Part shown: positions 2,070-37,100 of the stretch, piece after piece
Layout: every line of letters starts with the position of its first letter
How positions within the stretch are numbered: position 1 is the first letter of the stretch
Assembly: GCA_026413325.1 (NCBI GenBank)
Contig: JANZYW010000013.1
Span: forward strand, 1 to 38,498
Source of the DNA: Bacteroidia bacterium
GTDB lineage: Bacteria; Bacteroidota; Bacteroidia; SpSt-205
DNA length: 38,498 nucleotides
Direction: 5' to 3'
Position numbers and translations under genes: made by a program
Notes under the pieces: generated by a model
Databases searched by the model: none
Seen by the model: only the letters and a program-made list of their open reading frames with translations
Told to the model about the DNA's origin: nothing

Positions 2070-2602
2070 AGATTTGTATGCAAAAGTAAGGACTGGTTCT
2101 TGAGAATAATTTTTTGATCCTCAACATCTACCCGAGCATCTCCATTAAAGTCGGCGAGGGAATCTTGAGTAGCCAGCGCACGGAGAAATAGCTCATAATC
2201 ATACGCATTGATGACGGGGTAAGGCTCTCCAGGTAAGCTCCCAAGCTCCCCTGCGGCCATATAGGCTCTCCCCTCTTTTTCTACGTACCCACATTCTCGA
2301 TGGAGCAGCTGAGGTTGAGCGAAGTCTAAAATCACTCCTTCCTCAACCTGAACGGGTTCAGCTAATCGAAGGGGTAAATACCCTGGAACAAATAGCAAAG
2401 CTTCTGCAGGAGAAGTCAAGGATGAAGGCACAGAAAGCTCTGCCGTAGCCTTACCTGATAGAAGGTGCCCTTTCAAATCCAGCATCCGCTCTCCTGTACG
2501 CAACACAAGCTGAAACGGAGCTTCCTGTCGAGCTTCCAAAAGAAATCTCACCTGGAAAGATTGTGCACATGCCCACGCAAGCCCTGCCCATATCCATCGC
2601 AT
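2066..2602 (-). CDS. Secreted protein with C-terminal dockerin-like calcium-binding segment
   Basis: A 178-residue protein that opens the three-gene operon. The N-terminus MRWIWAGLAWACAQ is a short signal peptide. Residues 15-110 look like a beta-rich domain. Near the C-terminus, INAYDYELFLRAL (a helix) is followed by ADFNGDARVDVEDQKII. Asp151, Asn153, Asp155, Val158, Asp159 and Asp162 fit the dockerin type I F-hand pattern DxNxDxxVxxxD. Only one complete loop is visible, where classical dockerins have two. No T9SS tail is seen. Because the next two genes appear to carry cohesin-like modules, a calcium-dependent surface complex is possible; that is inference. The ATG at 2602 lies 8 bases after a perfect -7 box. 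Confidence 0.8.
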   Translation of the reverse strand: MRWIWAGLAWACAQSFQVRFLLEARQEAPFQLVLRTGERMLDLKGHLLSGKATAELSVPSSLTSPAEALLFVPGYLPLRLAEPVQVEEGVILDFAQPQLLHRECGYVEKEGRAYMAAGELGSLPGEPYPVINAYDYELFLRALATQDSLADFNGDARVDVEDQKIILKNQSLLLHTNL

Positions 2603-2610
2603 AGCTTAGG

Positions 2611-2618
2611 CAAATATA
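2611..2618 (-). promoter_or_regulatory. -7 promoter element of the secreted-protein operon
   Basis: Read on the minus strand this is TATATTTG, a perfect match to the Bacteroidota TAnnTTTG element, 8 bases before the ATG at 2602. No clear -33 TTG was found. Confidence 0.65.
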
Positions 2619-2691
2619 CATCAGAAATCAGGAATCTCTTGGATTAGATACGAAAGGTTGGGACGACCCCTCAGGATAAAGAAGCTTTACT

Positions 2692-2699
2692 TATATTTG
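2692..2699 (+). promoter_or_regulatory. -7 promoter element of the esterase-like gene
   Basis: TATATTTG is a perfect TAnnTTTG match that ends 4 bases before the ATG at 2704. It faces away from the minus-strand box at 2611-2618, so this 101-base gap is a divergent promoter region. Confidence 0.65.
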
Positions 2700-2703
2700 G
2701 TGC

Positions 2704-4131: not shown

Positions 4132-4405
4132 GTGAGTGTTTTTTGAGGTCTACCTACCTTCTCATCTCGCTCTAAAGAAAAGAGCGCGCGGCTCCGCTCT
4201 GATATAATAAGCGTCATATACTCCTGAATAAAAGTGAGGCAATTTTTCCCTCAGCTGTGGTTCCTTTCTGTGTGCATAGCTCTGAGAGGGATCATGCATT
4301 TTCTTGAGGGGGATGCGACTCTCACATCAAACCGACATCAAGTACCCGACTTCTTTCCAAACGGAGGGTGGTACTTTTCCCCTAAATTCGTCCCTGGAGT
4401 AGAGG
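4132..4405. other. Intergenic region with a small hairpin
   Basis: A 274-base gap between the hydrolase and the kinase pair. It holds a hairpin (4181-4186 AGAGCG pairs with 4195-4200 CGCTCT, 8-base loop) that may end the hydrolase transcript, although no T-run follows. A weaker inverted repeat is at 4235-4239/4249-4253. TAAATTCG at 4383-4390 is a two-step-degraded -7-like box 15 bases before the kinase ATG, a poorer fit than elsewhere. I see no convincing gene here. Confidence 0.4.
4181..4200 (+). terminator. Possible hairpin terminator after the esterase-like gene
   Basis: A perfect 6-base-pair stem with an 8-base loop lies 50 bases after the stop codon at 4131. The lack of a downstream T-tract makes intrinsic termination uncertain. 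Confidence 0.3.
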
Positions 4406-5908: not shown

Positions 5909-5915
5909 GGCTCCT

Positions 5916-9600: not shown

Positions 9601-9998
9601 GCTCTTTCCAGATCTTCCAGATAGACCTGGATATCTGGAGGAGCGGCTTGTCCATCGTGCAGAAAGGACTTTTTAGCCAGGAGCTGCTCAGGACTCTCTA
9701 CATGATCTGGATCGGGAAGGCAGCAGTCAACCGGACAGACAGCAGCACACTGCGGTTCTTCGTGGAATCCCATACATTCCGTGCATTTGCTGGGGACAAT
9801 GTAGTAATACTCAGTCGATATAGGAGCGTGGGGAGCCTCTGCGTCCAAAATAAGACCATTTCCCAAATCTACTTGCCCTACTAAGGCAGTTCCTTCCTTG
9901 TATCTCCATTGGACCCCCCCCTCGTATATGGCATTGTTCGGGCACTCTGGCTCGCAAGCTCCGCAGTTTATGCAGTCATCGGTGATACGGATAGCCAT
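9597..9998 (-). CDS. Dicluster 4Fe-4S ferredoxin, Alvin-like
   Basis: A 133-residue ferredoxin from the ATG at 9998. A longer reading frame upstream is unlikely because it would pass through the promoter. The first cluster motif is [12 protein letters not shown] (CX2CX2CX3CP). The second is [18 protein letters not shown], a CX2CX8CX3CP arrangement like that of Allochromatium vinosum ferredoxin. About 40 residues separate the motifs and a 40-residue tail follows. It should carry low-potential electrons in the cytoplasm. The gene lies 43 bases after the serine dehydratase gene and has its own -7 box, so it may be transcribed both with it and alone. Confidence 0.9.
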
Positions 9999-10005: not shown

Positions 10006-10013
10006 CGAAAGTA
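10006..10013 (-). promoter_or_regulatory. -7 promoter element of the ferredoxin gene
   Basis: On the minus strand this reads TACTTTCG, one mismatch from TAnnTTTG, ending 7 bases before the ATG at 9998. It lies in the 43-base gap after the serine dehydratase gene. Confidence 0.5.
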
Positions 10014-10947: not shown

Positions 10948-10977
10948 CGAAGATAGAGATAAAAAACTTCATAACAA
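10948..10977 (-). promoter_or_regulatory. Promoter of the L-serine dehydratase gene (-33 and -7)
   Basis: The minus strand has TTG (10977-10975), 19 bases of spacer, then TATCTTCG (10955-10948), ending 6 bases before the ATG at 10941. TTG-N19-TAnnTTTG is the described Bacteroidota promoter layout, here with one mismatch in the -7 box. Confidence 0.6.
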
Positions 10978-11014: not shown

Positions 11015-11698
11015 TCATATATCTCCCAGCATGGGTCGTAGCAGGAGCTCTTCTACCACAGCCTGGGGAGGAAGATGAGCGAGAGTCCATACCAGCTCTG
11101 CTACGGTTTCAGGTGAGATGAAACGATCGGGAGGATACGGCGCCCCCTCCCATGAATCCGTGAGCGTCGCCCCAAGGAGGAATGTTGTGACCCGAACTTG
11201 ATGCACTTTGAGCTGCTCCCGCAGATTGCGGGAAAAAGAAAGCAAAGCAGCCTTCGCGATGGAATAAGAGCTACCGTTGGGATAAGCCCCCAGGCTCGCC
11301 ACGGAAGCCATATTCACGATCAGCCCCGATCGCTGAGCTATGAAACGGGGCAGGAATGCCTTCGTCACGTAATAGGCGCTATGGAGATTAGAGGCTAACA
11401 TCTCCTCATACACTTCGTCAGACTCTTCCAATAGGCTACCGGGTTGAAAGCGGCCAGCGTTATTAACCAGTACGTCGACCTCAGCATATCGCTCTAAGAC
11501 ATGTGCAGCAAATGCGACAGCTTGTGCTTTCTGACCCAAGTCATACTGTCCTACATCCCAGTCGGGATGCCGTCTCCGGATACGATCGATATTCGCTGAA
11601 GTTCGACTGCACCCCACGATGGTGTACACGCCAGCAAAACGCCTGGCGATTGCATATCCTATCCCTCGAGACACACCAGTAACCACGAGGACGGGCAT
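11015..11698 (-). CDS. Short-chain dehydrogenase/reductase
   Basis: A 227-residue classical SDR enzyme. The cofactor motif is TGVSRGIG near the N-terminus, followed by the structural NNAG motif, a catalytic serine in MASVAS and the active-site pair in SSYSIAKAAL (YxxxK). It should be a cytoplasmic NAD(P)-dependent oxidoreductase acting on an alcohol, sugar or ketone; the substrate cannot be told. The ATG directly abuts the stop codon of cdaA with no gap, so it is the last gene of the NUDIX-folP-cdaA operon. Reduction of a pterin is a conceivable role given folP, but nothing in the sequence proves it. Confidence 0.85.
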   Translation of the reverse strand: MPVLVVTGVSRGIGYAIARRFAGVYTIVGCSRTSANIDRIRRRHPDWDVGQYDLGQKAQAVAFAAHVLERYAEVDVLVNNAGRFQPGSLLEESDEVYEEMLASNLHSAYYVTKAFLPRFIAQRSGLIVNMASVASLGAYPNGSSYSIAKAALLSFSRNLREQLKVHQVRVTTFLLGATLTDSWEGAPYPPDRFISPETVAELVWTLAHLPPQAVVEELLLRPMLGDI

Positions 11699-12472
11699 CT
11701 AACGAAGATAAAAACGAATCAGGAGCTTCTTCAGCTCCACGAAGGGTATCCGCCGAATCTCTCCCCGCTGCGCAATCGAAATGATGCCCGTCTCCTCCGA
11801 TACGATAAGAGTGAGTGCATCGGTCTGTTCCGTAATACCCATGGCTGCCCGATGGCGTTGACCATAATTCTGGGGTAGATCGAGCCGTTCACTCAAAGGC
11901 AAGGTGCAACGAGCAGCGATGATTTTATCCCCTCTTACAATGACCGCTCCATCATGCAAAGGGCTTTTTTTCTCGAAAAGCATCATAAACATCCGAGCAG
12001 CTACAGGCATCTGGAGACTGTCACCTGTCTGTGCAAATACCGACAGATCATCCGTTCCCTCCAGTACAATAAGGGCTCCTAAACCATTCTTGGAGAGAAG
12101 TTGAAGAGCTTCGATAATCTCCTCTGCGAGATGCTCCGCTTGCTGCTCCGTGAGAACATCCCTCCGAAGGAATCGAAGACCCGAAAAAAATCGGACTCCG
12201 TATAAGAGTCTCCTCAGATCCGGAGCCAACGCCACTGCCAAGATTACCCCTATCCATATCAAAAGCTGGCGAACCAAAAATGAAACGGCTACCAGCCCCA
12301 TCAGACTCAGTCCCTTCAAGAGAACCAACAACCCCAAGAGCGCTAAACTGACTCCCAAAAGATTGACTCGATAGAACCAGCGAAGCACCACATACAACAG
12401 CAGCGTTAGGAAAAGAACATCCAACCCATCTCGCCAGGTCAGAGGAATAAGTCCTATGCGGAAGGTTTCCAT
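11699..12472 (-). CDS. cdaA: Diadenylate cyclase CdaA (c-di-AMP synthase)
   Basis: A 257-residue membrane enzyme that makes the second messenger cyclic di-AMP from two ATP. Three hydrophobic segments lie in about residues 17-83. The DAC domain follows, with DGA at 174-176 and RHR at 206-208, the two motifs needed for catalysis, so it should be active. Length and layout match the CdaA class. The gene overlaps the end of folP by 19 bases; a folP-cdaA neighbourhood is widespread in Bacteroidota. In other bacteria c-di-AMP controls potassium balance and cell-wall stress. No c-di-AMP phosphodiesterase is seen in the window. Confidence 0.93.
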   Translation of the reverse strand: METFRIGLIPLTWRDGLDVLFLTLLLYVVLRWFYRVNLLGVSLALLGLLVLLKGLSLMGLVAVSFLVRQLLIWIGVILAVALAPDLRRLLYGVRFFSGLRFLRRDVLTEQQAEHLAEEIIEALQLLSKNGLGALIVLEGTDDLSVFAQTGDSLQMPVAARMFMMLFEKKSPLHDGAVIVRGDKIIAARCTLPLSERLDLPQNYGQRHRAAMGITEQTDALTLIVSEETGIISIAQRGEIRRIPFVELKKLLIRFYLR

Positions 12473-14656: not shown

Positions 14657-14664
14657 CAAAAGTA
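14657..14664 (-). promoter_or_regulatory. -7 promoter element of the methyltransferase-NUDIX-folP-cdaA operon
   Basis: On the minus strand TACTTTTG is a perfect TAnnTTTG match ending 4 bases before the GTG start at 14652. It supports the GTG as the true start. Confidence 0.62.
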
Positions 14665-17599: not shown

Positions 17600-17881
17600 C
17601 TATTTTAGATTATCGGCTACGAAAGGAAGGAGAGCCAGATGTCGAGCTCGTTTGATAGCACGAGCAAGTTGTTTCTGATACTTCCAGCTGGTTCCTGTGA
17701 TACGACGGGGCAGGATTTTCCCTTGTTCATTGATAAAATTGAACAGAAAGTCGGGATCTTTGTAGTCGATGTAGCGTATCCCACTCTTCTTAAAAAAGCA
17801 GAATTTCTTACGTTGACGAACCCCAGATAGTACCGCAAGTGCAGGATTAGAGGGAGCGGGGCCTAAACCTTTTTCTATCAT
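17600..17881 (-). CDS. rpsR: 30S ribosomal protein S18
   Basis: A 93-residue protein with the S18 core: [18 protein letters not shown], then [18 protein letters not shown] and [20 protein letters not shown]. It binds S6 in the platform of the small subunit. The start overlaps the end of rpsF by 4 bases (ATGA), which couples translation of the two partners. A second frame in the same stretch carries only part of this sequence and is a shadow. Confidence 0.96.
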
Positions 17882-18246
17882 ACGCTTGAGGGGGCTTGGG
17901 TGCGTTGTTTCTCTTGTCGCCTACGATTGAATTCGATTGCATGTTTATCCAACTTCACTATCAGATCTCGAAGTACATGGGGACGGAGCTGAAGGTACCG
18001 CCGAAGGCGACTGATAAAAGAAGCAGGTGCCCGAAACTCCGTATATAGGTAGTACCCCGATTCGCGTTTTCGAATAGGATAGGCCAATCTTCGCAGCCCC
18101 CATACCTCTTGGTTGACGATTTCTGCTCCATTCTCTGTGAGGAAGCGGTTAAACTCTTCCCGGTACTGGGAATACTCCCCGGCACCGAGATCGGGAGGCC
18201 ATATCTGTGTGACCTCATACTGGCCTATAGGGTCTAACCTCGGCAT
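17878..18246 (-). CDS. rpsF: 30S ribosomal protein S6
   Basis: A 122-residue protein from the ATG at 18246. A TTG further out at 18258 lies inside the promoter box and is rejected. The sequence has the S6 fold pattern: [37 protein letters not shown], then [11 protein letters not shown] and [14 protein letters not shown], with a basic C-terminal tail. It pairs with S18 on 16S rRNA. It is the first gene of rpsF-rpsR-rplI and has its own perfect -7 box, although the iscA-like gene upstream ends only 24 bases away on the same strand. Confidence 0.95.
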
Positions 18247-18255
18247 AAGCGGCTG

Positions 18256-18263
18256 CAAAGGTA
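18256..18263 (-). promoter_or_regulatory. -7 promoter element of the rpsF-rpsR-rplI operon
   Basis: On the minus strand TACCTTTG is a perfect TAnnTTTG match ending 9 bases before the ATG at 18246. The same TACCTTTGC occurs before rplS. Confidence 0.65.
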
Positions 18264-18270
18264 CAAAAAA

Positions 18271-18594
18271 TCAGATAGCGAAGGAGGTACCACACCCGCA
18301 CGTGGTGCGAGCTTGCGGATTGGAAAAAACGAATCCCCGAGCCGCTAATCCAGTAGGATAATCAATCTCTACCCCATCTAAAAACATCTTATGGCTCTCC
18401 TGAAGAAAGAAAGGAATGCCTTCAACCTCTATCCGTTGCTCCCCTGGAGAAGGAGTTTCCACAAGCTCGAAACGATATGTAAGACCTGCACACCCTCCAG
18501 CCTCTACTGCAAGGCGTACACCGATACATTCAGGTTTCTGCGAAAGGAGCCTTCTCAGCTCCTGTGCAGCAGAAAAGGTCAGGCGTAGTTGCAT
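18271..18594 (-). CDS. HesB/IscA-type iron-sulfur cluster carrier
   Basis: A 107-residue A-type carrier from the ATG at 18594; a GTG at 18609 would add five residues. The three conserved cysteines are Cys35 in EAGGCAGLTY and Cys99 and Cys101 in the C-terminal TTCGCGTSF. Such proteins receive iron-sulfur clusters from a scaffold and pass them to apo-enzymes. The family (IscA, ErpA, SufA) cannot be split further from sequence alone. It follows the TPR-CHAT gene by about 24 bases on the same strand and is probably co-transcribed with it. Possible clients in this window are the ferredoxin and L-serine dehydratase. Confidence 0.9.
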   Translation of the reverse strand: MQLRLTFSAAQELRRLLSQKPECIGVRLAVEAGGCAGLTYRFELVETPSPGEQRIEVEGIPFFLQESHKMFLDGVEIDYPTGLAARGFVFSNPQARTTCGCGTSFAI

Positions 18595-18618
18595 AGCTTG
18601 TATAAACACTTAACACAT

Positions 18619-21600
18619 CTAAGGACGAACCAGAATGAACGCTCCCCAGAAATAGGGGGCTCCCCGTGCACTGCGCATCGCACGTTGGGTATTCCAGAAG
18701 GCGTCTTCTATGGGTAGCTTTTTGCGAAGCCACTCCGAGTAGAAATGTATCATAAAATCTCGCGTGGCTTCATCATCTACTTTCCAAAGACTCAACAAAA
18801 GATTCCGTGCGCCTGCGAGCAAAAAGGCTCGCTGCAACCCATACACGCCTTCGCCATTTTGTACATCTCCCACACCCGTCTCACAGGCAGAAAGCGTCAC
18901 CAGCTGCGTGTTGGTGAGGCGGAGAGAGAGAAGTTCATAGGCATTCACAATCCCATCTCGAGACACATCAGAAGCCCCGTATAACATCGAACGACCAGCC
19001 TGTGCAAGCAAAAGGGCGGAACGGAAAAGAGGATTCGCCAAGGCACTGGCACTTTGCACCCCTATCAGGGTACCCAAGCCCTCATCATACGGTAAAAAAA
19101 GTCCATGAGTGGCGATGTGTAGAATATAAGGGGAGATAACTTCTTGTAGCAGAAGTTCATTAGCTTCTTCTTGAGTACGGATATAGGGAAGGATACCTTC
19201 GCTCTGGAGAATATCCCGGATCACTTTCGCCTCCTCCGCCGTACCTGGCAAAGGAGGAACATACAGACTATCCGGAGAGACCCCCGGTGCATATTCTGGA
19301 TCCGCCAGGATTAGGGCTTTTCGACCTTCGTAGTACTTCAAGGGTTTCTGTGGCACAGTAAGACTAGCCAGACGAGAATAGTGAACAACCTGGTATTTAT
19401 CCACAAGATAGCCTCCTTGGGGGAGAAACAGCACGGAAGGATTTATCTGATAATACACCCCATCCCCAGAAACGTAGAGCTTCGAAACAGTTTTAGGCAA
19501 AGCCTCGATGACCGGCTGCCAATAAGCAGTGTAGGAGAGGGTATCCTTTTCAAAGTTCAGGATGCTTTGGCTATAGCGGAATAGGTTATAGGTTTCCATC
19601 CGCTTTCCATTAGGAAAGGAGAAGATAAGGGGTTTTTTCAAAGAAGGGGTGGTGACAACTGCATAATACACAATGGAATCCTTCCCGAATGGAAGCCGAA
19701 GGCGAAGCCAGTCCACGGCAGCCGCTTCGGGAGGAAGGGCGCTTCTGAGCTGCTTCCAGGTAGGCCGTTTTAGGCGAATGTCTCCAATATAAGTGGTCAG
19801 CTGTTTCTCAAGCTCGTTAAGCCGTGCTTCTTCTTGCGAGAGCTCCACCCCCAGTTCACGCAGCTCAGATGGGCTATACGAGTAGAGCCGAACCACATAT
19901 TCCTTCTGATCTTGCCACTCTTGAAAGATACGCTGTACTGTCGTGTCGGGACTTCGAGCGAGCCGAGCCCGCAGCTGAGCAGTTTCACTCAGCAGAAAGG
20001 CTTTCGTGGCCAGATGCACTTCGTAGGCTTTGAGTTGGGTACCTTCTGTACCTTGAGAGAAAGCAAATGCAAAATACGGCTCTAACACCCGGCGAACTCG
20101 AGTCCAGTAGCGGGTCTTTTCACTCTCCGTGAGACCGTTGAAAAGTCGATCGACTTGCATAAGCAGGAGATCGATCGATTTCTCATAAGACTTTTTGGCA
20201 GAGCTCAGGTCGCGAGCCATCCAGTAGAGATCAGCCATTTCTGCCAGATAAAAAGGATATTCGGGGTGCGTAGTGCCATATAAGTTGGTCCAGAGGGTAA
20301 TCCATTTTTTATAGTCGTAGAGGGCCGCTCGATACTCCCCTTGAGCCCGTTTGAGCCGAGCCTGATACAAAATAGCTCTCATACGGTCGGGGTGCTTGAG
20401 AGGCACTTCTGCATCTAAGACGCTTTTGGCCGTAGCTATACGGGATTCTGCCAGAGAGAGGCTGTCCAGTGCAGACCAGAGTCCTCCTATATCCAGTGAT
20501 AAAGAAGCACATTCCAGGGGAGCTGAAGCCTGCGCTCGCTCCACCTCGTCCGAACTTCGCAGAAGAAGAACCGGTACCGTATCTTTTTTCCCTTGCAACA
20601 GGGCATTTTCTGCTAATAAGTACAGGGTACGAGCGAGAGGAAGCGCAGGCTTACTTCCATAAAATTTTTCTTGGGCCTGAAGGGCGGCCGATAGAAAGGC
20701 CTTTTGCTTGTCATAGCGTCCTAATGCCTGCTCGACCCGGGCAGAGGCCAAAAGAGCCTCAACATAGGCGGGAGAGATAGGTCCTTGCAGTCGCTGGTTC
20801 AAGTCGCGAGCTTTCTTAGCCGCCTCCTCTGCCTTTAGATAGTCTCCAACGAGAAGATAAAAGTCGGTTAGCCCAATATAGTAGTTAGCAACTTCGGGGT
20901 CTTCCCGACCACTGCTTTGGTAAAGGGTGGTTATCCGTTGATAGACCTCTCGAGCCCGCGTCAGACGCCCCGTACGTTGATACAAAAGGGCCAATCGAAG
21001 AAGACTCCCACTTTCTTCTCCCTCGGAAGTTTTCCCCTCTTTTCGTTGGCGTACTCTCAACCGGACTGCCTCCATATAGTGTTTCTCTGCCTCCCGGAAC
21101 TGGCCTTTTGCTTGAGCTAAGTCTCCTTTCAGCTCATGGAAAAAGATCCGCTCCGAGAGATAAACAGGCGGGAGGTCTTCTATCGGCTTCTCCATGATAC
21201 GAAGAATCGTATCGGAAATAGCAGCTTGGGCCAACCGCAAATAGAGGTCTGCCAGAAAGAGCATATTTCTCAAATAGAGCACATTTCGGGTTGGGATGGG
21301 CAAAAGCCGTTCATAAGCACTTCGTTGGTGCCGGAGGACTTCCTCTGCTTGATTATAACGTCCTGCTTGGAGACTGCGACGACCTAAAGCCTCTCGGATG
21401 GGAAAAACCAGAGGTCCCTCTGGTTCTCCCAGTTGATGGAGAATTCTCAGCACTCGTGCAAAAGCGGTATCTGCTTCTGCATACTTGTAACTCATCAAGG
21501 CTGCTTCTGCAAGCTCAGTCAGAGCCTGTGCCTGCTCCAGAGAAACGGCGGGAGCAGCCTCAGCAGTACGTTGAGCCGCTTGGGTGGCGTATGCAAAGGC

Positions 21601-22668
21601 TATGGAGGACCGATACTCAGAGCGGGCTACTCGAGAAACAACCCGTTGAAGCCGAGATGCCAAGATGCCCTCACCTCGCATCACATATAAGCCGATGACA
21701 TTTTCCGCCAGGGCATTCCGATGGGTAATACGAGCCACCTCTCGGAGGTGCTCCAAACCCTCTACTGTGGCATAGGTGAGGGGAGTGTGAGGATCTCTAA
21801 ATTTCCTGAGAATAGGATTGAGTCCCCGAATACGCCGTTCATAAAAGGCAGGCTTGACTTGAGAGAGCTCGTGGAGAAATAACAAAGTCGAACTTCGCAG
21901 CTGAAGATCTATGCCCCTATAGGCGGTTTTTCGAGCCCATCGCTGACTTTGTTTCAGAGCTTTTTTAGCTTGTGTCTCCTCTCCTCGGAAAAGGGCTCTC
22001 AACCCTAAGAGATAGGTATAGTCGGCCTGGTAGCGTGCCCCATGCTCAGAAGAGAACGAAAGCGAGGGGGGTAGGGAATCCCACTGCCCTTGCTGCCAGA
22101 ATGTCCAAGCGCGCAAAAAACTATGCCGCTGCTGCAGATAAGATCCGTACGGTTCTGGAAAAGGAGGGAAAGATGTAAACAATCGAAGGGTATCCACTAC
22201 TTGGGGGGAGTTTCCTACCAATAGGAGGTTTTCGGCAAGCTCGAGCAGGAGCAGGGCCCGCTGCCAGGGGGCCTGTACTTGTTGATTGGCGCTTAAGAAA
22301 GTCCGTTGCGATTCAGATACCCGACCTAATCCTCTTTTGATCCTACCTTGAATCCAGAGGTAACGAAAACGAATATCCGGACTGATGGAGGTTCCCCCTT
22401 CCAAAACAGGAAGAAACTGCCTAAGGAGGGAGTCTGCCTCTCGATAGCGCTGCTCTTCGGAAAGAGCCAACGCATAGGCCAGTCCAGCAGAGGCAAACTC
22501 CCTTTCCTGGGAGCTTCTCCGCCTGGTGTATTTCTGATAGGCATTTTGAGCCTGTTTAATGAAACTCTGGACCTTACCCCTGAAGTACAGGGCCTCTCCA
22601 GGTAGGTCTTGCGCCCAAGCAAGACACAGAAGGGAAAGCAGCGAAGCAGACCTAATCCTTAGAAGCAT
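18619..22668 (-). CDS. Exported TPR-repeat protein with C-terminal CHAT (caspase-like) protease domain
   Basis: A 1349-residue protein. MLLRIRSASLLSLLCLAWA is a signal peptide. Residues of about 25-900 are almost all helical with many tetratricopeptide-like repeats (for example ALGRYDKQKAFLSAALQAQE and RDLSSAKKSYEKSIDLLL). A linking helical region follows to about 1000. The CHAT domain covers about 1030-1349, with catalytic His1188 in HIATHGLF and Cys1262 in TLSACETGVGD, so the peptidase dyad is intact. The domain ends GAFILVRP, as CHAT domains do. CHAT belongs to the caspase/separase clan. The signal peptide places it outside the cytoplasm; no T9SS tail is seen. It lies 23 bases after rplS and has no -7 box of its own. 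Substrate unknown. Confidence 0.9.
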   Translation of the reverse strand: MLLRIRSASLLSLLCLAWAQDLPGEALYFRGKVQSFIKQAQNAYQKYTRRRSSQEREFASAGLAYALALSEEQRYREADSLLRQFLPVLEGGTSISPDIRFRYLWIQGRIKRGLGRVSESQRTFLSANQQVQAPWQRALLLLELAENLLLVGNSPQVVDTLRLFTSFPPFPEPYGSYLQQRHSFLRAWTFWQQGQWDSLPPSLSFSSEHGARYQADYTYLLGLRALFRGEETQAKKALKQSQRWARKTAYRGIDLQLRSSTLLFLHELSQVKPAFYERRIRGLNPILRKFRDPHTPLTYATVEGLEHLREVARITHRNALAENVIGLYVMRGEGILASRLQRVVSRVARSEYRSSIAFAYATQAAQRTAEAAPAVSLEQAQALTELAEAALMSYKYAEADTAFARVLRILHQLGEPEGPLVFPIREALGRRSLQAGRYNQAEEVLRHQRSAYERLLPIPTRNVLYLRNMLFLADLYLRLAQAAISDTILRIMEKPIEDLPPVYLSERIFFHELKGDLAQAKGQFREAEKHYMEAVRLRVRQRKEGKTSEGEESGSLLRLALLYQRTGRLTRAREVYQRITTLYQSSGREDPEVANYYIGLTDFYLLVGDYLKAEEAAKKARDLNQRLQGPISPAYVEALLASARVEQALGRYDKQKAFLSAALQAQEKFYGSKPALPLARTLYLLAENALLQGKKDTVPVLLLRSSDEVERAQASAPLECASLSLDIGGLWSALDSLSLAESRIATAKSVLDAEVPLKHPDRMRAILYQARLKRAQGEYRAALYDYKKWITLWTNLYGTTHPEYPFYLAEMADLYWMARDLSSAKKSYEKSIDLLLMQVDRLFNGLTESEKTRYWTRVRRVLEPYFAFAFSQGTEGTQLKAYEVHLATKAFLLSETAQLRARLARSPDTTVQRIFQEWQDQKEYVVRLYSYSPSELRELGVELSQEEARLNELEKQLTTYIGDIRLKRPTWKQLRSALPPEAAAVDWLRLRLPFGKDSIVYYAVVTTPSLKKPLIFSFPNGKRMETYNLFRYSQSILNFEKDTLSYTAYWQPVIEALPKTVSKLYVSGDGVYYQINPSVLFLPQGGYLVDKYQVVHYSRLASLTVPQKPLKYYEGRKALILADPEYAPGVSPDSLYVPPLPGTAEEAKVIRDILQSEGILPYIRTQEEANELLLQEVISPYILHIATHGLFLPYDEGLGTLIGVQSASALANPLFRSALLLAQAGRSMLYGASDVSRDGIVNAYELLSLRLTNTQLVTLSACETGVGDVQNGEGVYGLQRAFLLAGARNLLLSLWKVDDEATRDFMIHFYSEWLRKKLPIEDAFWNTQRAMRSARGAPYFWGAFILVRP

Positions 22669-22691
22669 AGAGGCTGTAAATGCCCTCAGTT

Positions 22692-23051
22692 TTATCCTTC
22701 TCGACGCTTTAGACGCAGAGCTTTGCCTAAACGACCCCGCATATAGAAAAGACGAGCGCGGCGTACCCTATTGCGACGAATAACTTCTACCTTAAGCAAG
22801 AAGGGAGAATGCAGAGGAACAATCCTTTCTACTCCGACTCCACCAGATACCTTTCTCACAGTCACCGTCTCTCTCAATCCACTCCCTCGCCGTTGTATCA
22901 CCATTCCTTCGAAAACCTGTATCCTTTCTTTACCTCCTTCTACGATCTTGAGGTGCAGACGAACAATATCTCCCGCACGGAATGAGGGTAGGTCGGATTT
23001 CACATACGGAGCGTTGATAAGATGTTCTATTTCGCGCAGTAGATGGCTCAT
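22692..23051 (-). CDS. rplS: 50S ribosomal protein L19
   Basis: A 119-residue protein with the L19 signature: [62 protein letters not shown] (in parts) and the basic C-terminal [15 protein letters not shown]. It lies at the interface of the two ribosomal subunits. It has a perfect -7 box 4 bases upstream, and it is the probable promoter gene of the TPR-CHAT and HesB genes that follow on the same strand. Usual companions such as trmD or rimM are absent here. Confidence 0.96.
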
Positions 23052-23055
23052 GGCG

Positions 23056-23063
23056 CAAAGGTA
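23056..23063 (-). promoter_or_regulatory. -7 promoter element of rplS
   Basis: On the minus strand TACCTTTG is a perfect TAnnTTTG match ending 4 bases before the ATG at 23051. It forms a divergent pair with the exbB box. Confidence 0.65.
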
Positions 23064-23120: not shown

Positions 23121-23128
23121 TATATTTG
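23121..23128 (+). promoter_or_regulatory. -7 promoter element of the exbB-tonB-ferritin operon
   Basis: TATATTTG is a perfect match ending 7 bases before the ATG at 23136. A TTTG lies 17 bases upstream of it, two bases short of the usual 19-base spacing. Confidence 0.65.
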
Positions 23129-28202: not shown

Positions 28203-28736
28203 TCCATTGCTTAGGTCAATAACCGTCGTACGCCCACCAGAAAGGGGCCCCGCATCTAACACCTCCTCCACTTGAGACGCATACCGCTCAAACTGGCCCT
28301 CTGGTACTCCAGCGGTCACAATGGGCTCTCCTAACTCCGCGAGGAGATTTCTGAGCAGAGGATATTCCGATACCCGAAAGCCCACTGTGCGTCGGTGCCA
28401 CAGATGACGAGGGATAGCGGGACCAGGCCTCAATATGATCGTATAAGGCCCTGGCCATAGCCGGCGTACTAATCGATAAGTAGGTGTATCCACTCCTAAT
28501 GCATATTGACCAATAGCTCCTACTTCTGGTAGAAATATAGAAAAGAGGCTTTTCTCCGGACGAACCCCTCGCATCTGACAAACACGCTCAAAGGGCTCCC
28601 GACTTGCAACCGTACATCCGATCGCATAAGAAGTATCTGTTGGATACAATACTACTTTCCCCTCTCTCAATGCCTGTACCACTCGTTGAATAGCCCGTTT
28701 ATGCGGAATGCCATTCGAAACATCCCATCTCCCCAT
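28110..28736 (-). CDS. tsaC: L-threonylcarbamoyladenylate synthase (TsaC/Sua5/YciO family)
   Basis: A 208-residue cytoplasmic enzyme that makes threonylcarbamoyl-AMP for the t6A37 modification of tRNAs reading ANN codons. The family motif GKVVLYPTDTSYAIGC lies at residues about 26-42 and is followed by KSLFSIFLP, WPGPYTIILRP and VGFRVSEYPLL. Length fits the short TsaC/YciO form without the Sua5 C-terminal domain. Family assignment is firm; whether it is the t6A enzyme itself or the related YciO is less certain. A perfect -7 box lies 8 bases upstream. It diverges from the outer-membrane gene with only 42 bases between the starts. Confidence 0.88.
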   Translation of the reverse strand: MGRWDVSNGIPHKRAIQRVVQALREGKVVLYPTDTSYAIGCTVASREPFERVCQMRGVRPEKSLFSIFLPEVGAIGQYALGVDTPTYRLVRRLWPGPYTIILRPGPAIPRHLWHRRTVGFRVSEYPLLRNLLAELGEPIVTAGVPEGQFERYASQVEEVLDAGPLSGGRTTVIDLSNGLARLRVLRVGLGSIAELEPFLALSESFQEA

Positions 28737-28744: not shown

Positions 28745-28752
28745 CAAAAATA
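28745..28752 (-). promoter_or_regulatory. -7 promoter element of tsaC
   Basis: On the minus strand TATTTTTG is a perfect TAnnTTTG match ending 8 bases before the ATG at 28736. Confidence 0.65.
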
Positions 28753-28766: not shown

Positions 28767-28774
28767 TACCTTTG
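28767..28774 (+). promoter_or_regulatory. -7 promoter element of the outer-membrane protein gene
   Basis: TACCTTTG is a perfect match ending 4 bases before the ATG at 28779. Only 14 bases separate it from the divergent tsaC box. Confidence 0.65.
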
Positions 28775-28778: not shown

Positions 28779-29522
28779 ATGCGCTTTGTGCTATTTTTTA
28801 CATACATATGGGCCCAAAACTTCTTGAGTATGGGGGCGAGGCTACAAGCGACACAATCTACCCTGATATGTCCCACTGATCGAGCGGCTTCTGATGTATC
28901 GCTTGACCGCACCCAAAAGGCCGGACTCATAGGCTTCTTTAGCTGGGGATGGACACCTCACTTCGCCACGGGTATAGAAATCGCTTATCAGGGAACCGGG
29001 CAGAGATTTTACGGCATCGGCGTAAATGGAGATAACTATACCGCCCAGCTCAACCTCCACTACCTACGAGGGGGTTTATCCCTTCAACCTCAGTATGCTA
29101 AAGGAAGGTGGGGTGTCTGGTCGAGCCTCAGCCCAGGTCTCAGTTTCCTCACCCAAGCAGAAATGCTGTACCAGGGAGATAGCCTCCCTCGAGGAAAACT
29201 CACAACACCTCAAGTAATCCAAACTACTCTCAGCTACTTAGACCAGAGTACGGACCCTAACGATCGCCTCATTCTCACTCGAATGCACCAGCGCATCATC
29301 CCTGTCATCCATTTCGCAGGGGGGATGCGTATCCTTCTTGCTCCACAGGTCTGGTTGCTGGGACTCATCTCTTACGAACGGAGCTTAGGCGATATCGAGC
29401 GAAAAAACTTTCGCCCTCGCCCCGGTGAGGCTCCTATTTATGATAATCGCAGAAGGGCCGTCCAATACCAGCTTGTCGGCCTCCAGATAGGCTTGCAATA
29501 CGAGGTATCTACTCGCCGCTGA
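28779..29522 (+). CDS. Outer-membrane beta-barrel protein
   Basis: A 247-residue protein from the ATG at 28779, which lies 4 bases after a perfect -7 box; a longer frame from 28686 would run across the promoter and tsaC. MRFVLFFTYIWAQ is a short signal peptide. The rest is built of alternating aromatic strands with Gly and Tyr, for example AGLIGFFSWGWTPHFATGIEI and YQLVGLQIGLQYEV at the end. This fits a small beta barrel of the porin/PorT-like type seen in Bacteroidota. No specific family can be named. Its stop codon abuts the stop of the convergent surface-protein gene. Confidence 0.75.
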   Translation: MRFVLFFTYIWAQNFLSMGARLQATQSTLICPTDRAASDVSLDRTQKAGLIGFFSWGWTPHFATGIEIAYQGTGQRFYGIGVNGDNYTAQLNLHYLRGGLSLQPQYAKGRWGVWSSLSPGLSFLTQAEMLYQGDSLPRGKLTTPQVIQTTLSYLDQSTDPNDRLILTRMHQRIIPVIHFAGGMRILLAPQVWLLGLISYERSLGDIERKNFRPRPGEAPIYDNRRRAVQYQLVGLQIGLQYEVSTRR

Positions 29523-32500
29523 TCACCTCAGCAGAGATACCGTACCCGCCCGACTAAAGGTGCGAAAACGTATCAAATACACATAGGCCCCTTCGGGCAA
29601 ACGCTCCCCCGCTCTGGTTCTCCCATCCCACTGAAAAGGAGCAACTCGAGTAGAGTATAGCTCCGTGCCCCACCTATCGTATATAATCAGCTCCTGGATG
29701 CATTCCGGAGAGCCTAAAATCCGAAAAACATCATTTATGCCATCCCCATTAGGTGAAAATACATTGGGAATGAAAAGTGCTCTGGAAATAGCCAAATCAG
29801 AATCTAACGCATACCGAAAAGTATCCACACAACCTTCCTGGTCAATATATACGACCTCGACTCTATAAACTTGCGGATGAGAAAGGGGTACACGAACACG
29901 TATCGTGCCTGGCGGATATACAACACCTCCAACCTCTACCCTCAAGACACGCTCCGAGGGTATATCCACATAAAAATCTATCCACAAAGCACAGAGATCC
30001 GCTTCCCACCGAAGGGAGTCTAACCCCCGACGCCGAGGTACGTCCACCACCCCAACTAAAGTATCTCTACAGAATGAGAGACCTCCCGGGTTTGTAACCA
30101 ACTGCCAGGTATATGTGCCAGGAGCGGGAGCAATCCACACTATCGTGTCCCCGCGCTGACTTTGCCCCTCGATTTGCCATTCCACTTCATTGGCAAATCG
30201 ACTGCGAGACACAAATATAACCCGTTGTCCACAGGTATCTACTCGAACCTCAGCTCTCGCCTCAGAAGAAAAGTCCACTTCTATCTGCCGAAAAATCGTA
30301 TCTGAACACAAGCTATCCGGAGAAAAGACTATCAAACGGACTTCATACGTACCCGGTTGACTATACACATGCAAAGGAGAAGGTTGAGAACTGGTAGCCC
30401 CATCCCCAAACTCCCAAAAGGTAAACCCTGCTCCAACCGAGCTATCCCAAAACTGAACTGTCAACGCACAATAATCTATCTCTATGCGAAAATCTGCCCG
30501 CACCGAACGTGAGACCTGTATAGACTGCCTCAAGGTATCCGAACAGCCTAAACTATCGAACACCACCAATGTCACCTGATATGTCCCCGAAGCAGGAAAC
30601 TGATAACTGGGCGAAAAATCGAATACGGTGTCTCCCGTGCTGAAAACCCATACATGGGAAATCGCACCTACAGACTGATTGGTAAAAGTATAACGCCCCT
30701 GACAGCTGTCGCCCGTCCAGGAGAAATCCGCTCTCGTCAGAGAAGTATTGGCCACCACAAACTGGGCAAAAGTGTCTCGACAGCCTCGAGGGCTGGTAAC
30801 AACGAGCTGAACATAATACGAACCCGCTGCAGCATAGGTATGGACTGGAGAAGGAAGCGCACTACTCTGTCCATCTCCGAAGTTCCAGCTGTATTGCATA
30901 CCCGGAGTGGTATCTCGTGGAAAGAACGTCACGCGCCTATTGCAGTCCGTCTCCCAGGTAAAATCCGCAGAGGGAGGAGGATCTACCGTAATCGTACGAC
31001 GAAGGGTATCTCGCTGATTGCAGGTAAAGAGATTCTCTGCTACTAAAAGCAACGTATACGTACCCGGCTGGGTATAAGTCACAGGGCCCGGATTCGCTGC
31101 CGTTGAGGTTTGGCCATTCCCAAAATCCCAGTAGTAGGTGGTACCATTTTGGCTCAGATTTTGAACTGTCATGGTAAAAGGGACACATCCCCGAGAAGGG
31201 ATAAGAGCAGCAGCGGCTACCACTGGATCTCCCAGCTGAAAGTCTATCTTGAAAAGTGCATTATTACAGTTCGGGCTATTGTTTGTATTAGAAATGGCGC
31301 CAGGGGTAGTAGGGAAATCAGAGTTTCCTCCGCAACCTCCACAGACAGATTGATATATCACCCCCCGGTTGTCAAATCGACTTGTCCCTCCATCTACATG
31401 CTCCTCCGAAAAGGGCCCTCCCCAAAAGGAAGCATATGCCAGGCCCGAAAGGGCCGGCTCAAAAGCAATTACATAAAAATCAGCCCCATCTGTTGTAGTT
31501 TGATTCGCATTCGGCGTCGTAGGGAGACCCAAGGTAGAACCATATACACCCGTTCCTACATCGAGCCCCCCCCAACCTGAAACATACACATATCCGCAGC
31601 GGTCAGCCGCAAAAGCACTAATGGTGATATTGGGAGTAGGACGTCCAGCTGAACCCCATACGGAGAGGCGGGTCACTTGGGAAAGGGAGTCATTCATCGA
31701 GAAAACAAACTGTTTCCGACCAGCAAAGCCGTAAGCACCTGGGGTAGGAGTCAATACCCCTTCGGTATGGCCTACACCCCATAAAAGCCCCTGTCGGTCC
31801 AAGTCTATCATAAACACCTGATCATACGCAGCAGTACCCCAGTAAGTAGAAATAAGGAGCTGAGAAAGGGTAGGACTCAAAATAGCCAACCAGCCATCCG
31901 CCCGCCCTCCTTGATAAGAAGGTTGATAGCTGCCTGGTGTCGTGGGGAAGTTAGAGCTATTAGTGCCCCCTGCTACATAAACCCCCCCCCCAAAACCTAT
32001 CCGAATGGAATAGCCCGCATCAGCTCCACTGCCCCCTAAATAGGTACTGGCATATAAGCGCCTTAAGTCCAGCGACAGCATACACACTACCGCATCCATA
32101 CCTCCCCTTAGGGTGGTCTGATAAGCCCCTGCCGTGGTCGGGAAGTTAGAGGAGCGGGTGGAAGAAATAAGATAACAAGCGGTGTCCCCCACGACAATCT
32201 CCCCTCTCCCATCATCCGCATAGAAGTAATACAGGGGGTATACGCGGCTGTTCAGTCCATCTTCACCACTTCCGCCCAGATAAGTACTTCCTAAAAGCTG
32301 ATTTCCTGCACTATTGATCCAGCTCACCACTATGTCTATATTCCCACCAGAAACAGGCTGGAAAGCACCCAGCGTGACCGGATAATCCTGAGAACGGGTT
32401 GCTCCCAATACATAGAGATTTCCTTGGGGGTCGGTAACCAGACTATGGGGCTGCTCATTGTCACTACCCCCGAGATAGGTAGCCCACAAACGTACTGTCC

Positions 32501-33428
32501 CAGTCGGGTTAGTTTTCCATAGAGCAATATCCGTGGCCCAGAAAATCGGTTGATTGCTTCCATAAGAAACCCCTCCACCGAAAGTACCTTGCAAAGCTCC
32601 CGGAGTCACCGGAAAATAGACACCCCCCGGATTCCATTCCCACTGATTGTCGTTTACATTTCCCCCACTGATGGCGTTCCCTTGCAAATCGTACGTAGCA
32701 GTGAAACCCCAGTTGTCTGAGAATGAACCAGAATAAGAAGAAAACACCACCACAGGGTCGATGACTAATGGACCGCTGACCGAAGCAAGCAGTTCATAGC
32801 GGACGGTAGTTCCTTCTAAGAAATAACGAGCAGGTAATGCAGTAGAATCCCCTTCCAGGTATACGAAGGGGAGACGCTCGGTAAAAGTCCCTATACTGGT
32901 CTCCATCTGCAAAGAGTCTCCTTTCACAGAAAGAGAGACACCTTCATATTGTAGCCGAATGCGTCGAAGCGCTTCAGGAGAACGCACATGCCAGTCCCAT
33001 TTCAGGCCTGTGGAGGTCATACGAAAGCACACATCCACCCCCGGATACACTCCCCTATACCATACCCTATGAAAACCTTTCACATCTACCGCTCGCCAGG
33101 GGCCCTGGAAAAAGTTATAGAGCGTAGGTTCGGCTTCCTCCCCGTGTGGCTCCGTATTTTGCCCTCCGACCCATCGGATACGAACAAAATGGGCCCTTAC
33201 CACCTGGGGCGGCCCCCACCGCTCAAAATGCGCCTTACGAAAAGGGGTATCATCCACCAAAAGGAGAGCTACCCCTTCAGGAGTAAGATAAACTCGATGC
33301 GGCCCCCACGCCGACTCGAAACGGGCCTCAGGATATATCTGTCCCTTATTTTCTACAAAAGTGCCTCCATGTCGAGCCCAGACTATCCCCTGCACAAACC
33401 CCACAAGTCCTATTATGCCGAACCGCAT
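29523..33428 (-). CDS. Large surface protein: SBBP repeats, PKD domains and T9SS type B tail
   Basis: A 1301-residue protein from the ATG at 33428 (3 bases after a -7-like box); an upstream GTG-type frame is not needed. MRFGIIGLVGFVQGIVWA is a signal peptide. Next comes the ENKGQIYPEARF N-terminal domain seen at the start of many Bacteroidota cargos. The middle (about 220-680) has repeated beta-propeller SBBP units of the form YLGGSxxEQ...DPQGNLYVLGAT. Then come about five PKD domains (for example YYWDFGNGQTS, YSWNFGDGQSS, FWEFGDGATS). The last 85 residues (FIPNVFSPNGDGINDVF, then YDRWGTELY and LPEGAYVYLI) are the T9SS type B (CHU_C) sorting domain. It is probably a gliding or adhesion surface protein. 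Confidence 0.92.
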   Translation of the reverse strand: MRFGIIGLVGFVQGIVWARHGGTFVENKGQIYPEARFESAWGPHRVYLTPEGVALLLVDDTPFRKAHFERWGPPQVVRAHFVRIRWVGGQNTEPHGEEAEPTLYNFFQGPWRAVDVKGFHRVWYRGVYPGVDVCFRMTSTGLKWDWHVRSPEALRRIRLQYEGVSLSVKGDSLQMETSIGTFTERLPFVYLEGDSTALPARYFLEGTTVRYELLASVSGPLVIDPVVVFSSYSGSFSDNWGFTATYDLQGNAISGGNVNDNQWEWNPGGVYFPVTPGALQGTFGGGVSYGSNQPIFWATDIALWKTNPTGTVRLWATYLGGSDNEQPHSLVTDPQGNLYVLGATRSQDYPVTLGAFQPVSGGNIDIVVSWINSAGNQLLGSTYLGGSGEDGLNSRVYPLYYFYADDGRGEIVVGDTACYLISSTRSSNFPTTAGAYQTTLRGGMDAVVCMLSLDLRRLYASTYLGGSGADAGYSIRIGFGGGVYVAGGTNSSNFPTTPGSYQPSYQGGRADGWLAILSPTLSQLLISTYWGTAAYDQVFMIDLDRQGLLWGVGHTEGVLTPTPGAYGFAGRKQFVFSMNDSLSQVTRLSVWGSAGRPTPNITISAFAADRCGYVYVSGWGGLDVGTGVYGSTLGLPTTPNANQTTTDGADFYVIAFEPALSGLAYASFWGGPFSEEHVDGGTSRFDNRGVIYQSVCGGCGGNSDFPTTPGAISNTNNSPNCNNALFKIDFQLGDPVVAAAALIPSRGCVPFTMTVQNLSQNGTTYYWDFGNGQTSTAANPGPVTYTQPGTYTLLLVAENLFTCNQRDTLRRTITVDPPPSADFTWETDCNRRVTFFPRDTTPGMQYSWNFGDGQSSALPSPVHTYAAAGSYYVQLVVTSPRGCRDTFAQFVVANTSLTRADFSWTGDSCQGRYTFTNQSVGAISHVWVFSTGDTVFDFSPSYQFPASGTYQVTLVVFDSLGCSDTLRQSIQVSRSVRADFRIEIDYCALTVQFWDSSVGAGFTFWEFGDGATSSQPSPLHVYSQPGTYEVRLIVFSPDSLCSDTIFRQIEVDFSSEARAEVRVDTCGQRVIFVSRSRFANEVEWQIEGQSQRGDTIVWIAPAPGTYTWQLVTNPGGLSFCRDTLVGVVDVPRRRGLDSLRWEADLCALWIDFYVDIPSERVLRVEVGGVVYPPGTIRVRVPLSHPQVYRVEVVYIDQEGCVDTFRYALDSDLAISRALFIPNVFSPNGDGINDVFRILGSPECIQELIIYDRWGTELYSTRVAPFQWDGRTRAGERLPEGAYVYLIRFRTFSRAGTVSLLR
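31982..31991 (-). repeat. Ten-base homopolymer within the surface-protein gene
   Basis: Ten cytosines on the plus strand, read as G10 on the coding strand, encode part of GFGGGVYVAG. Such a run is prone to slippage by one base, which would break the reading frame. Confidence 0.7.
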
Positions 33429-33431
33429 AAT

Positions 33432-33439
33432 CGAAAATA
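33432..33439 (-). promoter_or_regulatory. -7 promoter element of the large surface protein
   Basis: On the minus strand TATTTTCG (one mismatch from TAnnTTTG) ends 3 bases before the ATG at 33428. This is the shortest gap in the window and supports that start. Confidence 0.5.
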
Positions 33440-33543
33440 CGACTTTTTCTTTAGTCTCCCCTTGCACAAGATGAGAAGACCTTTTCTTATTCCGGGCATT
33501 TCACCATCCACCGACTAAGATTGGGCGCTTGAAGGAAAGCCGA

Positions 33544-33551
33544 TATCTTTG
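33544..33551 (+). promoter_or_regulatory. Promoter of acs (-7 with a TTG upstream)
   Basis: TATCTTTG is a perfect match ending 4 bases before the ATG at 33556. A TTG lies 20 bases upstream of it, close to the known 19-base spacing. Confidence 0.65.
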
Positions 33552-33555
33552 AAGT

Positions 33556-35403: not shown

Positions 35404-35425
35404 TACATAAACGCAAGCCTCTACC

Positions 35426-35433
35426 TATATTTG
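35426..35433 (+). promoter_or_regulatory. -7 promoter element of the SiaC-like gene
   Basis: TATATTTG is a perfect match ending 7 bases before the ATG at 35441, in the 37-base gap after acs. Confidence 0.62.
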
Positions 35434-35440
35434 CCAGCCG

Positions 35441-35812
35441 ATGCGTCTTTTCATCGGGAGCTCTTCTTACCAACCGCTGGTACTATTTGATCTAAACCAG
35501 CATTTCCTCAGAATCGATGGAATGAGCAACATGACAAACGCAGCTGAGTTCTATAAAACCCTATCGGACTGGATCTCAGCGCATAAAAGCTCCATAGAAA
35601 TCGGCACAGAACTGGTGTTACGTCTCCTGTACTTGAATAGCTCTTCTAATAAAGCCATCTATCATTTCTTCCTGCGAATAACGCATGAGAACATTCCTGT
35701 TTCCATCGTGATAGTCAAAAGTACTTCCTCTGACAATGAAGATGTCGTCGAACTTTTGGAGCAGATATGCCGTATCTTGGGGCTTCCCTATATAATACGA
35801 GAAGAGCCCTGA
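35441..35812 (+). CDS. SiaC-like regulatory phosphoprotein (DUF1987)
   Basis: A 123-residue protein with the DUF1987/SiaC pattern: a strand near the start, then NAAEFYKTLSDWISAHK, and the motif YLNSSSNKAI at residues 64-73, which matches the FNTSSSK segment that carries the phosphorylated residue of SiaC. In Pseudomonas, SiaC is dephosphorylated by SiaA and phosphorylated by the kinase SiaB, and the bare form activates the diguanylate cyclase SiaD. None of those partners is seen here, so a similar switch is only inferred. The two membrane kinases at 4406-7586 are not obvious SiaB types. Start is supported by the -7 box. Confidence 0.7.
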   Translation: MRLFIGSSSYQPLVLFDLNQHFLRIDGMSNMTNAAEFYKTLSDWISAHKSSIEIGTELVLRLLYLNSSSNKAIYHFFLRITHENIPVSIVIVKSTSSDNEDVVELLEQICRILGLPYIIREEP

Positions 35813-35851
35813 AAGAAGGAAGCTATTCAGCCTAACTTCGTAGAAAGTAAA

Positions 35852-37087
35852 CTACACTTGTCGAAGAGCTTCTAACAGACGATCCAGCTCCTGCTCGGTG
35901 GTGTAGAGATGGGGAGTCACCCGGATACCCTTAATCCCCATCCAATCTATCGCTGCTACGAAAATACGGTACTTTTCAAGCAGGTGATCCGCCAGCTTTT
36001 GAGGCTCCCACCCCTCCACTTGGATAGTGGCCAACCCAGCTGCAAGCTTTTCTGGAGTAAGGGAACGTATTTTTGGTAACTGTATAGCCTGAGAGAGCCA
36101 ATAAGAGCGAAGCTTTTGCAACCGAGCCGTTTTACGCGCTAAACCTATCCGATGATGAAAGTCTATGGCAGGAGCTATGGCTTGCTCCGTAGGAATCGAA
36201 CGAGTCCCTAAATGCTCAAACTTGCGGATATCTTCTTTTTTCCTCTCAGATGGAGCTGCAAAAAGAGGCCATATTTCCGCTATCCGCTCTTTTTTTATGT
36301 ACAATAGTCCAGTTCCAAACGGGGCACATAACCATTTGTGCAAACTCACTCCCGCAGCATCACAACCCATCTCATGAAAATCTACTGGGATATGTGCATA
36401 GCTATGAGCTGCATCTACCAGAGTAAAGATACCCCGCTTTCGGGCCTCAGCGATGATAGGCTTCACGGGAACGATCTGACCTGTCCAGTTGACAAGGTGT
36501 GTAAGATGAATGACGCGAGTACGAGGTGTAATAGCTTGAAGATAGGGTAGCACAAGCTTCTCTTCCTCATCAGAAGGCAGCGGAAGGCGCACCCATCGCA
36601 AGCGAACCCCATCCCGTGCTTCTCGTTGCTTCCAGGCGGCGATCATGCTGGGATAATCACTTTCCGCCAAGATTACTTCATCTCCTGTCCGAAGGGATAA
36701 ACCGAAAATAACTGTCTCTAATGCTTCGGTCGAATTTCGTACGATAGCGACCTCCTCTGGATCCACCCCTGCTATGGCAGCTAAACGTTGCCGAATCGGC
36801 TCCTTTTGATCTTGAATACGCCACATAGTATAGGCAGGTGCTTCATTGGCAGAAAGCTCCAAGCGAAAGAGCGCTTCCCATACCGACCGAGGATGAGGAG
36901 ATACTCCTCCATTATTGAGATTGATCAAGGAGGGATGCAAGGGAAACTCGCCTCGCACCCATCCCCAGAAATCTTCTTCATCGGCATCGTCAGCAGGGGG
37001 AGAAAGGGGCTGCTCCCAATGTGCGATCCGCTCAAAAGGTATCCCCCACAACGCAGCCATCGTCTGTAAAAAAACCCGTCTTTCCAT
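35852..37087 (-). CDS. Tat-exported class V aminotransferase-fold PLP enzyme
   Basis: A 411-residue protein. MERRVFLQTMAALWG fits a twin-arginine export signal (RRxFL followed by a hydrophobic stretch). The PLP fold is of aminotransferase class V, with the pocket segment NSTEALETVIFGL, the Asp/His turn LVDAAHSYAHIPVDF and the PLP lysine Lys251 in GVSLHKWLCAPFGTG. Members of this class include cysteine desulfurases and isopenicillin N epimerase-like proteins; the desulfurase cysteine region is not evident, so an epimerase or lyase role is more likely. A perfect -7 box lies 5 bases upstream. It converges with the SiaC-like gene. Confidence 0.88.
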   Translation of the reverse strand: MERRVFLQTMAALWGIPFERIAHWEQPLSPPADDADEEDFWGWVRGEFPLHPSLINLNNGGVSPHPRSVWEALFRLELSANEAPAYTMWRIQDQKEPIRQRLAAIAGVDPEEVAIVRNSTEALETVIFGLSLRTGDEVILAESDYPSMIAAWKQREARDGVRLRWVRLPLPSDEEEKLVLPYLQAITPRTRVIHLTHLVNWTGQIVPVKPIIAEARKRGIFTLVDAAHSYAHIPVDFHEMGCDAAGVSLHKWLCAPFGTGLLYIKKERIAEIWPLFAAPSERKKEDIRKFEHLGTRSIPTEQAIAPAIDFHHRIGLARKTARLQKLRSYWLSQAIQLPKIRSLTPEKLAAGLATIQVEGWEPQKLADHLLEKYRIFVAAIDWMGIKGIRVTPHLYTTEQELDRLLEALRQV

Positions 37088-37092
37088 CCCCT

Positions 37093-37100
37093 CAAAACTA
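37093..37100 (-). promoter_or_regulatory. -7 promoter element of the class V aminotransferase-fold gene
   Basis: On the minus strand TAGTTTTG is a perfect TAnnTTTG match ending 5 bases before the ATG at 37087. Confidence 0.62.

Follow-up and report, generated by a model that had tools for sequence, protein, structure and literature searches.

Housekeeping promoter boxes at a fixed short distance from start codons suggest leaderless first genes in a family of Bacteroidia

Bacteroidota are regarded as initiating translation without Shine–Dalgarno (SD) sequences but on leadered mRNAs, and their ribosomes keep the anti-SD. In the species studied (B. fragilis, B. thetaiotaomicron, F. johnsoniae and F. 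psychrophilum), the −7 box of sigma-A promoters lies tens of nucleotides upstream of the start codon. Among published rates, a 5′ UTR <10 nt was reported for 3.7% in B. thetaiotaomicron (PMC7366714), a leaderless state for 5.5% in F. psychrophilum (PMC9723704) and leaders of ≤10 nt for 13% in F. johnsoniae (PMC6847099). Outside the phylum, leaderless mRNAs of mycobacteria follow an experimentally found RTG-only rule (Shell et al. 2015), with ~22% of start sites in M. tuberculosis being RTG (PMC4633059). By prediction, leaderless genes average 39% in Deinococcus-Thermus and also occur in Actinobacteria, and they were found in one of 37 Bacteroidetes/Chlorobi genomes (2.4%; Zheng et al. 2011, PMC3160421). 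That survey sought Pribnow-like TA signals, and by its own caveat other signals, for example those of Bacteroidetes, may be underestimated (PMC3160421). In the literature that we searched, with subscription papers outside its scope, no predominantly leaderless Bacteroidota lineage was reported.

The DNA analysed here is a stretch of 38,498 nt (the window) from a member of a Bacteroidia family designated f1. Its promoter boxes resemble the sigma-A promoters of the Bacteroidota named above in the octamer itself, in the short sigma factor, in the lack of SD sequences and in the anti-SD kept in 16S rRNA; unlike those promoters, boxes near the start codon outnumber boxes at 10–59 nt by 3–4:1 in the first genes of family f1. 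As in leaderless genes of mycobacteria, the start codon stands at the predicted +1, is ATG or GTG only, and is accompanied by stop–start overlaps in operons; however, phylum and promoter box differ, SD initiation is not the alternative, and the leaderless state is predicted from sequence. Leaderless genes of Deinococcus-Thermus and Actinobacteria likewise have a promoter box that keeps a set, short spacing to the start codon. What would be new is a leaderless gene organization that uses the −7 promoter of the Bacteroidota; leaderless arrangements have so far been described as rare in the phylum.

Boxes and gene starts in the window

The first-pass annotation had placed 14 boxes (11 TAnnTTTG and three TAnnTTCG) ahead of start codons, with gaps between the last G and the codon of 8, 4, 4, 9, 4, 7, 8, 4, 4, 7, 5, 7, 6 and 3 nt. 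All 14 boxes were located in the window sequence, and every gap agrees. A fifteenth box, TATCTTCG, had been overlooked; it lies at gap 4 from the start at 11698 (minus strand). The boxes are the following.

2611..2618, minus strand: −7 box TATATTTG, gap 8 to ATG 2602 (−)
2692..2699, plus strand: −7 box TATATTTG, gap 4 to ATG 2704 (+); predicted leaderless
10006..10013, minus strand: variant box TACTTTCG, gap 7 to ATG 9998 (−), ferredoxin-like gene
10948..10955, minus strand: variant box TATCTTCG, gap 6 to ATG 10941 (−), serine dehydratase alpha chain
11703..11710, minus strand: variant box TATCTTCG, gap 4 to ATG 11698 (−)
14657..14664, minus strand: −7 box TACTTTTG, gap 4 to GTG 14652 (−), methyltransferase-like gene; predicted leaderless GTG start
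18256..18263, minus strand: −7 box TACCTTTG, gap 9 to ATG 18246 (−), ribosomal protein S6 gene
23056..23063, minus strand: −7 box TACCTTTG, gap 4 to ATG 23051 (−), ribosomal protein L19 gene (rplS)
23121..23128, plus strand: −7 box TATATTTG, gap 7 to ATG 23136 (+), MotA/TolQ/ExbB-family gene
28745..28752, minus strand: −7 box TATTTTTG, gap 8 to ATG 28736 (−), Sua5/YrdC gene; interleaved with the divergent promoter
28767..28774, plus strand: −7 box TACCTTTG, gap 4 to ATG 28779 (+)
33432..33439, minus strand: variant box TATTTTCG, gap 3 to ATG 33428 (−), large PKD/CHU_C secreted protein
33544..33551, plus strand: −7 box TATCTTTG, gap 4 to ATG 33556 (+), acyl/acetyl-CoA synthetase
35426..35433, plus strand: −7 box TATATTTG, gap 7 to ATG 35441 (+), SiaC-family gene
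37093..37100, minus strand: −7 box TAGTTTTG, gap 5 to ATG 37087 (−), class V aminotransferase

The divergent starts at 28736 (−) and 28779 (+) are 42 bp apart, with both boxes back to back inside this interval. Over both strands, the window holds 26 perfect TAnnTTTG against 17.5 expected, a count reached by three of 100 shuffles; the raw number is a mild excess, and the signal lies in position. With motif-blind starts, picked by a home-made hexamer coding score that ignores the motif, nine window genes carry a perfect box at gap 3–9, whereas 720 controls, with every start slid by 40–400 nt, average 0.12 and never exceed 1.

Other contents of the window include a pair of adjoining eukaryotic-type Ser/Thr protein kinase genes (PF00069; 4406–7586), a TPR-CHAT protein gene (1349 amino acids; 18619–22668) between the L19 and S6 genes (17878–23051), and a large secreted protein of the T9SS type (29523–33428), which carries PKD repeats, DUF7948 and a CHU_C tail.

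A one-nucleotide peak and its start codons

Genome-wide, the position of the box relative to the start codon shows a peak that is sharp to one nucleotide. In the source genome (G000; 2.19 Mb in 135 contigs), TAnnTTTG-N4-ATG occurs 178 times, which is 9.3 times the mean of gaps 10–29 (384/20 = 19.2 per gap); the reversed pattern occurs 23 times. The looser pattern TANNTTTGN{3,6}ATG gives 344 occurrences versus 69 reversed. Because background is high in AT-rich genomes, raw ratios to the reversed pattern were dropped in favour of gap 4 relative to gaps 10–29. Gene-level numbers for the source genome refer to a 742-kb sample (~1/3 of the genome, 51% GC, 618 genes called with a home-made caller). 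In this sample, the motif-blind histogram for gaps 0–9 reads 0, 0, 1, 6, 65, 21, 11, 14, 8 and 3, on a background of 0.41 per position at gaps 30–99. A relative assembled as a single contig (G006) has a histogram of the same shape, and gap-4 counts are 223 in this genome and 190 in a further relative (G008), where each of the gaps 10–29 averages 22.5 and 14.4 occurrences, respectively.

The codons found at gap 4 are restricted. When trinucleotides were counted after every box without gene calls, with expected values from gaps 12–39, only ATG (114 versus 12.2) and GTG (42 versus 10.7) were strongly enriched, whereas TTG (5 versus 13.6), CTG (10 versus 16.1) and ATA (6 versus 13.5) lay under background. 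Of the 78 gap-4 ATG genes, 62 have a pyrimidine directly before the codon. AAT and GAT are slightly raised at gap 4, which would fit leaders of a single purine in genes at gap 5.

The F. johnsoniae box spans −12 to −5, with transcription starting 4–5 nt beyond it (PMC6847099); the box of F. psychrophilum has the same coordinates (PMC9723704). If this Flavobacterium value of the promoter-to-start spacing, applied here to family f1, holds, gap 4 would make the first base of the start codon the +1 position. The RTG-only pattern would be expected if that first base is the purine start site, and the most fitting reading of the gap-4 genes is that they lack a leader altogether. Part of the gap-3 and gap-5 genes are predicted to be strictly leaderless as well, and gaps 6–9 probably leave leaders of 1–5 nt. 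The first-pass proposal that mRNAs start at or within a few bases of the codon is supported by the gap-4 peak, by promoter logic and by conservation, and is refined for gaps 6–9, where short leaders are more likely.

Our overall reading, to which we assign a probability of roughly 0.86, is that boxes of the housekeeping sigma factor are placed at a fixed distance before the start codon and that gap-4 mRNAs are leaderless. The boxes would be −7 elements of sigma-ABfr type promoters that family f1 has shifted to a fixed start-codon distance, and RNA polymerase would initiate on a purine 4–5 nt past the last G. With a gap of 4, the initiating purine would be the A or G of ATG or GTG, so that the mRNA would open with RUG and without a leader; gaps 5–9 would give leaders of ~1–5 nt. 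Ribosomes would then start on the 5′-terminal codon without SD or leader contacts, and operon-internal genes, mostly boxless and often ATGA-packed, are probably translated by coupling. The start site itself, leaderless translation and coupling are the steps that we infer.

The alternative that survives best, although we consider it unlikely, is that the polymerase starts 1–3 nt past the box, giving leaders of 1–8 nt that are too short for a ribosome site. The gaps of 5–9 are indeed a real shoulder, with orthologue pairs at 7/7, 8/8 and 9/9 and a conserved gap in the ExbB-family gene (below), and any fixed spacing must leave short leaders at these gaps. However, a peak one nucleotide wide at gap 4, occupied by RTG only and with TTG and CTG under background, fits initiation on the start codon, as does the 4–5-nt spacing of F. 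johnsoniae.

Gene context of the boxes

The boxes distinguish first genes (divergent, or at least 60 nt downstream of a co-directional gene) from operon-internal genes. A perfect box at 3–9 nt precedes 39% of first genes in the G000 sample and 43% in G006, versus 9–10% of internal genes in these genomes, where chance would give <1 gene. Allowing TTYG, boxes precede 59/134 divergent and 37/86 spaced co-directional genes of G000 (controls, ~1). About half of first genes have no recognizable box at 3–9 nt, and 11–15% have a box only at 10–59 nt. The claim of widespread leaderless transcripts applies to ~40–50% of first genes and not to all; ~10–15% keep a box at 10–59 nt. Head-to-head genes have a median distance of 52–74 bp in the family versus 149–210 bp in comparators, and ATGA stop–start overlaps join 82/433 co-directional pairs in G000 and 48/237 in G006 (~19–20%). 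SD-like words are not enriched before starts (19 genes, versus 36 in a control interval). The presence of the box on first rather than internal genes points to a promoter and not to a ribosome site.

These data also bear on the possibility that the boxes are secondary promoters, with leadered main transcripts arising further upstream, which seems quite improbable. It would suit the half of first genes without a near box and the boxed minority of internal genes, where leadered read-through must coexist; but the short head-to-head intervals leave little space for further promoters, and perfect boxes in first genes are 3–4 times rarer at 10–59 nt than at 3–9 nt. We give very little credence to TAnnTTTG being a translational signal, such as a U-rich S1 site, instead of a promoter: the box does lie near the start codon, and S1 is among the ribosomal proteins present, yet internal genes need ribosomes too and are far less often boxed (9–10% versus 39–43%), the octamer is the phylum's known sigma-A consensus, and other families carry the element mostly 10–40 nt from the start. 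Chance or an artefact of start choice, which a raw window count of merely 1.5 times expectation might suggest, is already refuted by motif-blind starts, gene-call-free counts, the offset null and cross-species conservation, all of which agree.

Conservation, distribution and the translation machinery

Among 109 reciprocal best hits between the G000 and G006 samples (mean identity 66%), 31 orthologue pairs share a TTYG box near the start, mostly with the same aligned start codon and the same gap. For rplS (23051), TACCTTTG with a 4-nt spacer of varying letters is present in 11/11 family genomes that yielded the region, and for the ExbB-family gene (23136), TATATTTG is invariant at gap 7–8 in 11/11; at 28779 the gap is 3–4 in 10/11 and 7 in the other, again with a variable spacer sequence, counts over related genomes not being independent. 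No box was seen before the counterpart of 23136 in a genome of the sister family (G012). In rpsU, the box stands 4–7 nt before the ATG in 11/11 family genomes (L195–L205); in most other families it lies ~17–40 nt upstream, with an SD-like stretch between in two of them. An extended SD in the rpsU leader of Flavobacterium lets bS21-free ribosomes control rpsU, and such extended SDs are reported to be characteristic across the phylum (PMC9976891). As the rpsU box of family f1 abuts the start codon, an extended SD has no room.

Across Bacteroidia, enrichment at gap 4 relative to gaps 10–29 is ~9–13-fold or slightly less in family f1 (G000, G001, G002, G003, G006 and G008; lowest, at 7–8-fold, in G002 and G003) and ~1–4-fold in the other Bacteroidia for which both counts were obtained, most having 1–2-fold and a few families 2.5–4-fold. 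The Flavobacteriaceae-like family f32 has 1.05–1.4-fold, with higher values in f92 (2.6–3.0), f84 (2.4–3.0), f21 (2.5–3.0), f10 (3–4), f18 (3.3–3.4) and f110 (3.5–4.2). The sister-family genome G012 (~1.5-fold for gaps 3–5) and most other families lack a comparable peak. By gene starts, 24% of first genes in f92 (G437) have a near box and 33% have one only at 10–59 nt; the corresponding values are 6% and 32% in one comparator (G033) and 5% and 28% in another (G596). These low comparator values match the published rates of 3.7%, 5.5% and 13%, and this agreement speaks for the method. The strong signature is particular to family f1, with f92 intermediate; f92 has a similar absolute excess per Mb, so the trait comes in degrees and f1 is not alone in having it. 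In f92 (G437, G470 and G497), a strong gap-4 signal occurs beside many leadered promoters. Position, sharpness, RTG restriction, gene context, conservation and family specificity of the boxes are what the sequences show directly.

Several candidate changes in the ribosome were considered and rejected. The 16S gene was not found in G000, and that of G006, used instead, ends CCTCCTTTCT; the anti-SD is kept and its loss in G006 is rejected. Loss of bS21 in the family is likewise rejected: the protein is present in 11/11 relatives, and its AAY motif, aligned with Y54 of F. johnsoniae, is kept in the rows that reach that far. Only in the G000 assembly was no bS21 gene found, probably owing to an assembly gap. 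Ribosomal protein S1 was found in the family members searched, and its loss is rejected too. The sigma-70 protein (292 amino acids; L021:1336-2214) is of the short primary type without region 1.1. Gap-4 genes have no signal for the TTTG element near −33, which is barely visible in F. johnsoniae too. The examined parts (16S 3′ end, bS21 and S1) resemble those of leadered Bacteroidota, and no dedicated adaptation was found among them. These points weigh against our reading, as do the missing −33 signal, the first genes without a near box and the use of a spacing taken from Flavobacterium. Arg CGN makes up 22% of second codons in box genes and 6% of all codons; as a preference of box genes it was rejected, the proportion in first genes without a box being 17% (p = 0.22, not significant).

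For family f1 as a whole, we lean, with less assurance than for the reading of the boxes themselves, towards leaderless expression as the default for first genes of operons: the −7 element would have slid onto the start codon, alongside the very short head-to-head spacing, internal genes would be left to stop–start coupling, and no room would remain for an rpsU leader or its extended SD; f92 would be part-way, possibly independently. Leaderless mRNA had been dismissed as an explanation for SD-free translation because the species studied are leadered. Family f1, apparently mainly leaderless, would provide a natural contrast among close relatives with apparently similar ribosomes; a switch between leadered and leaderless initiation thereby becomes testable, and the spacing offers a start-codon rule for annotating genomes of the family.
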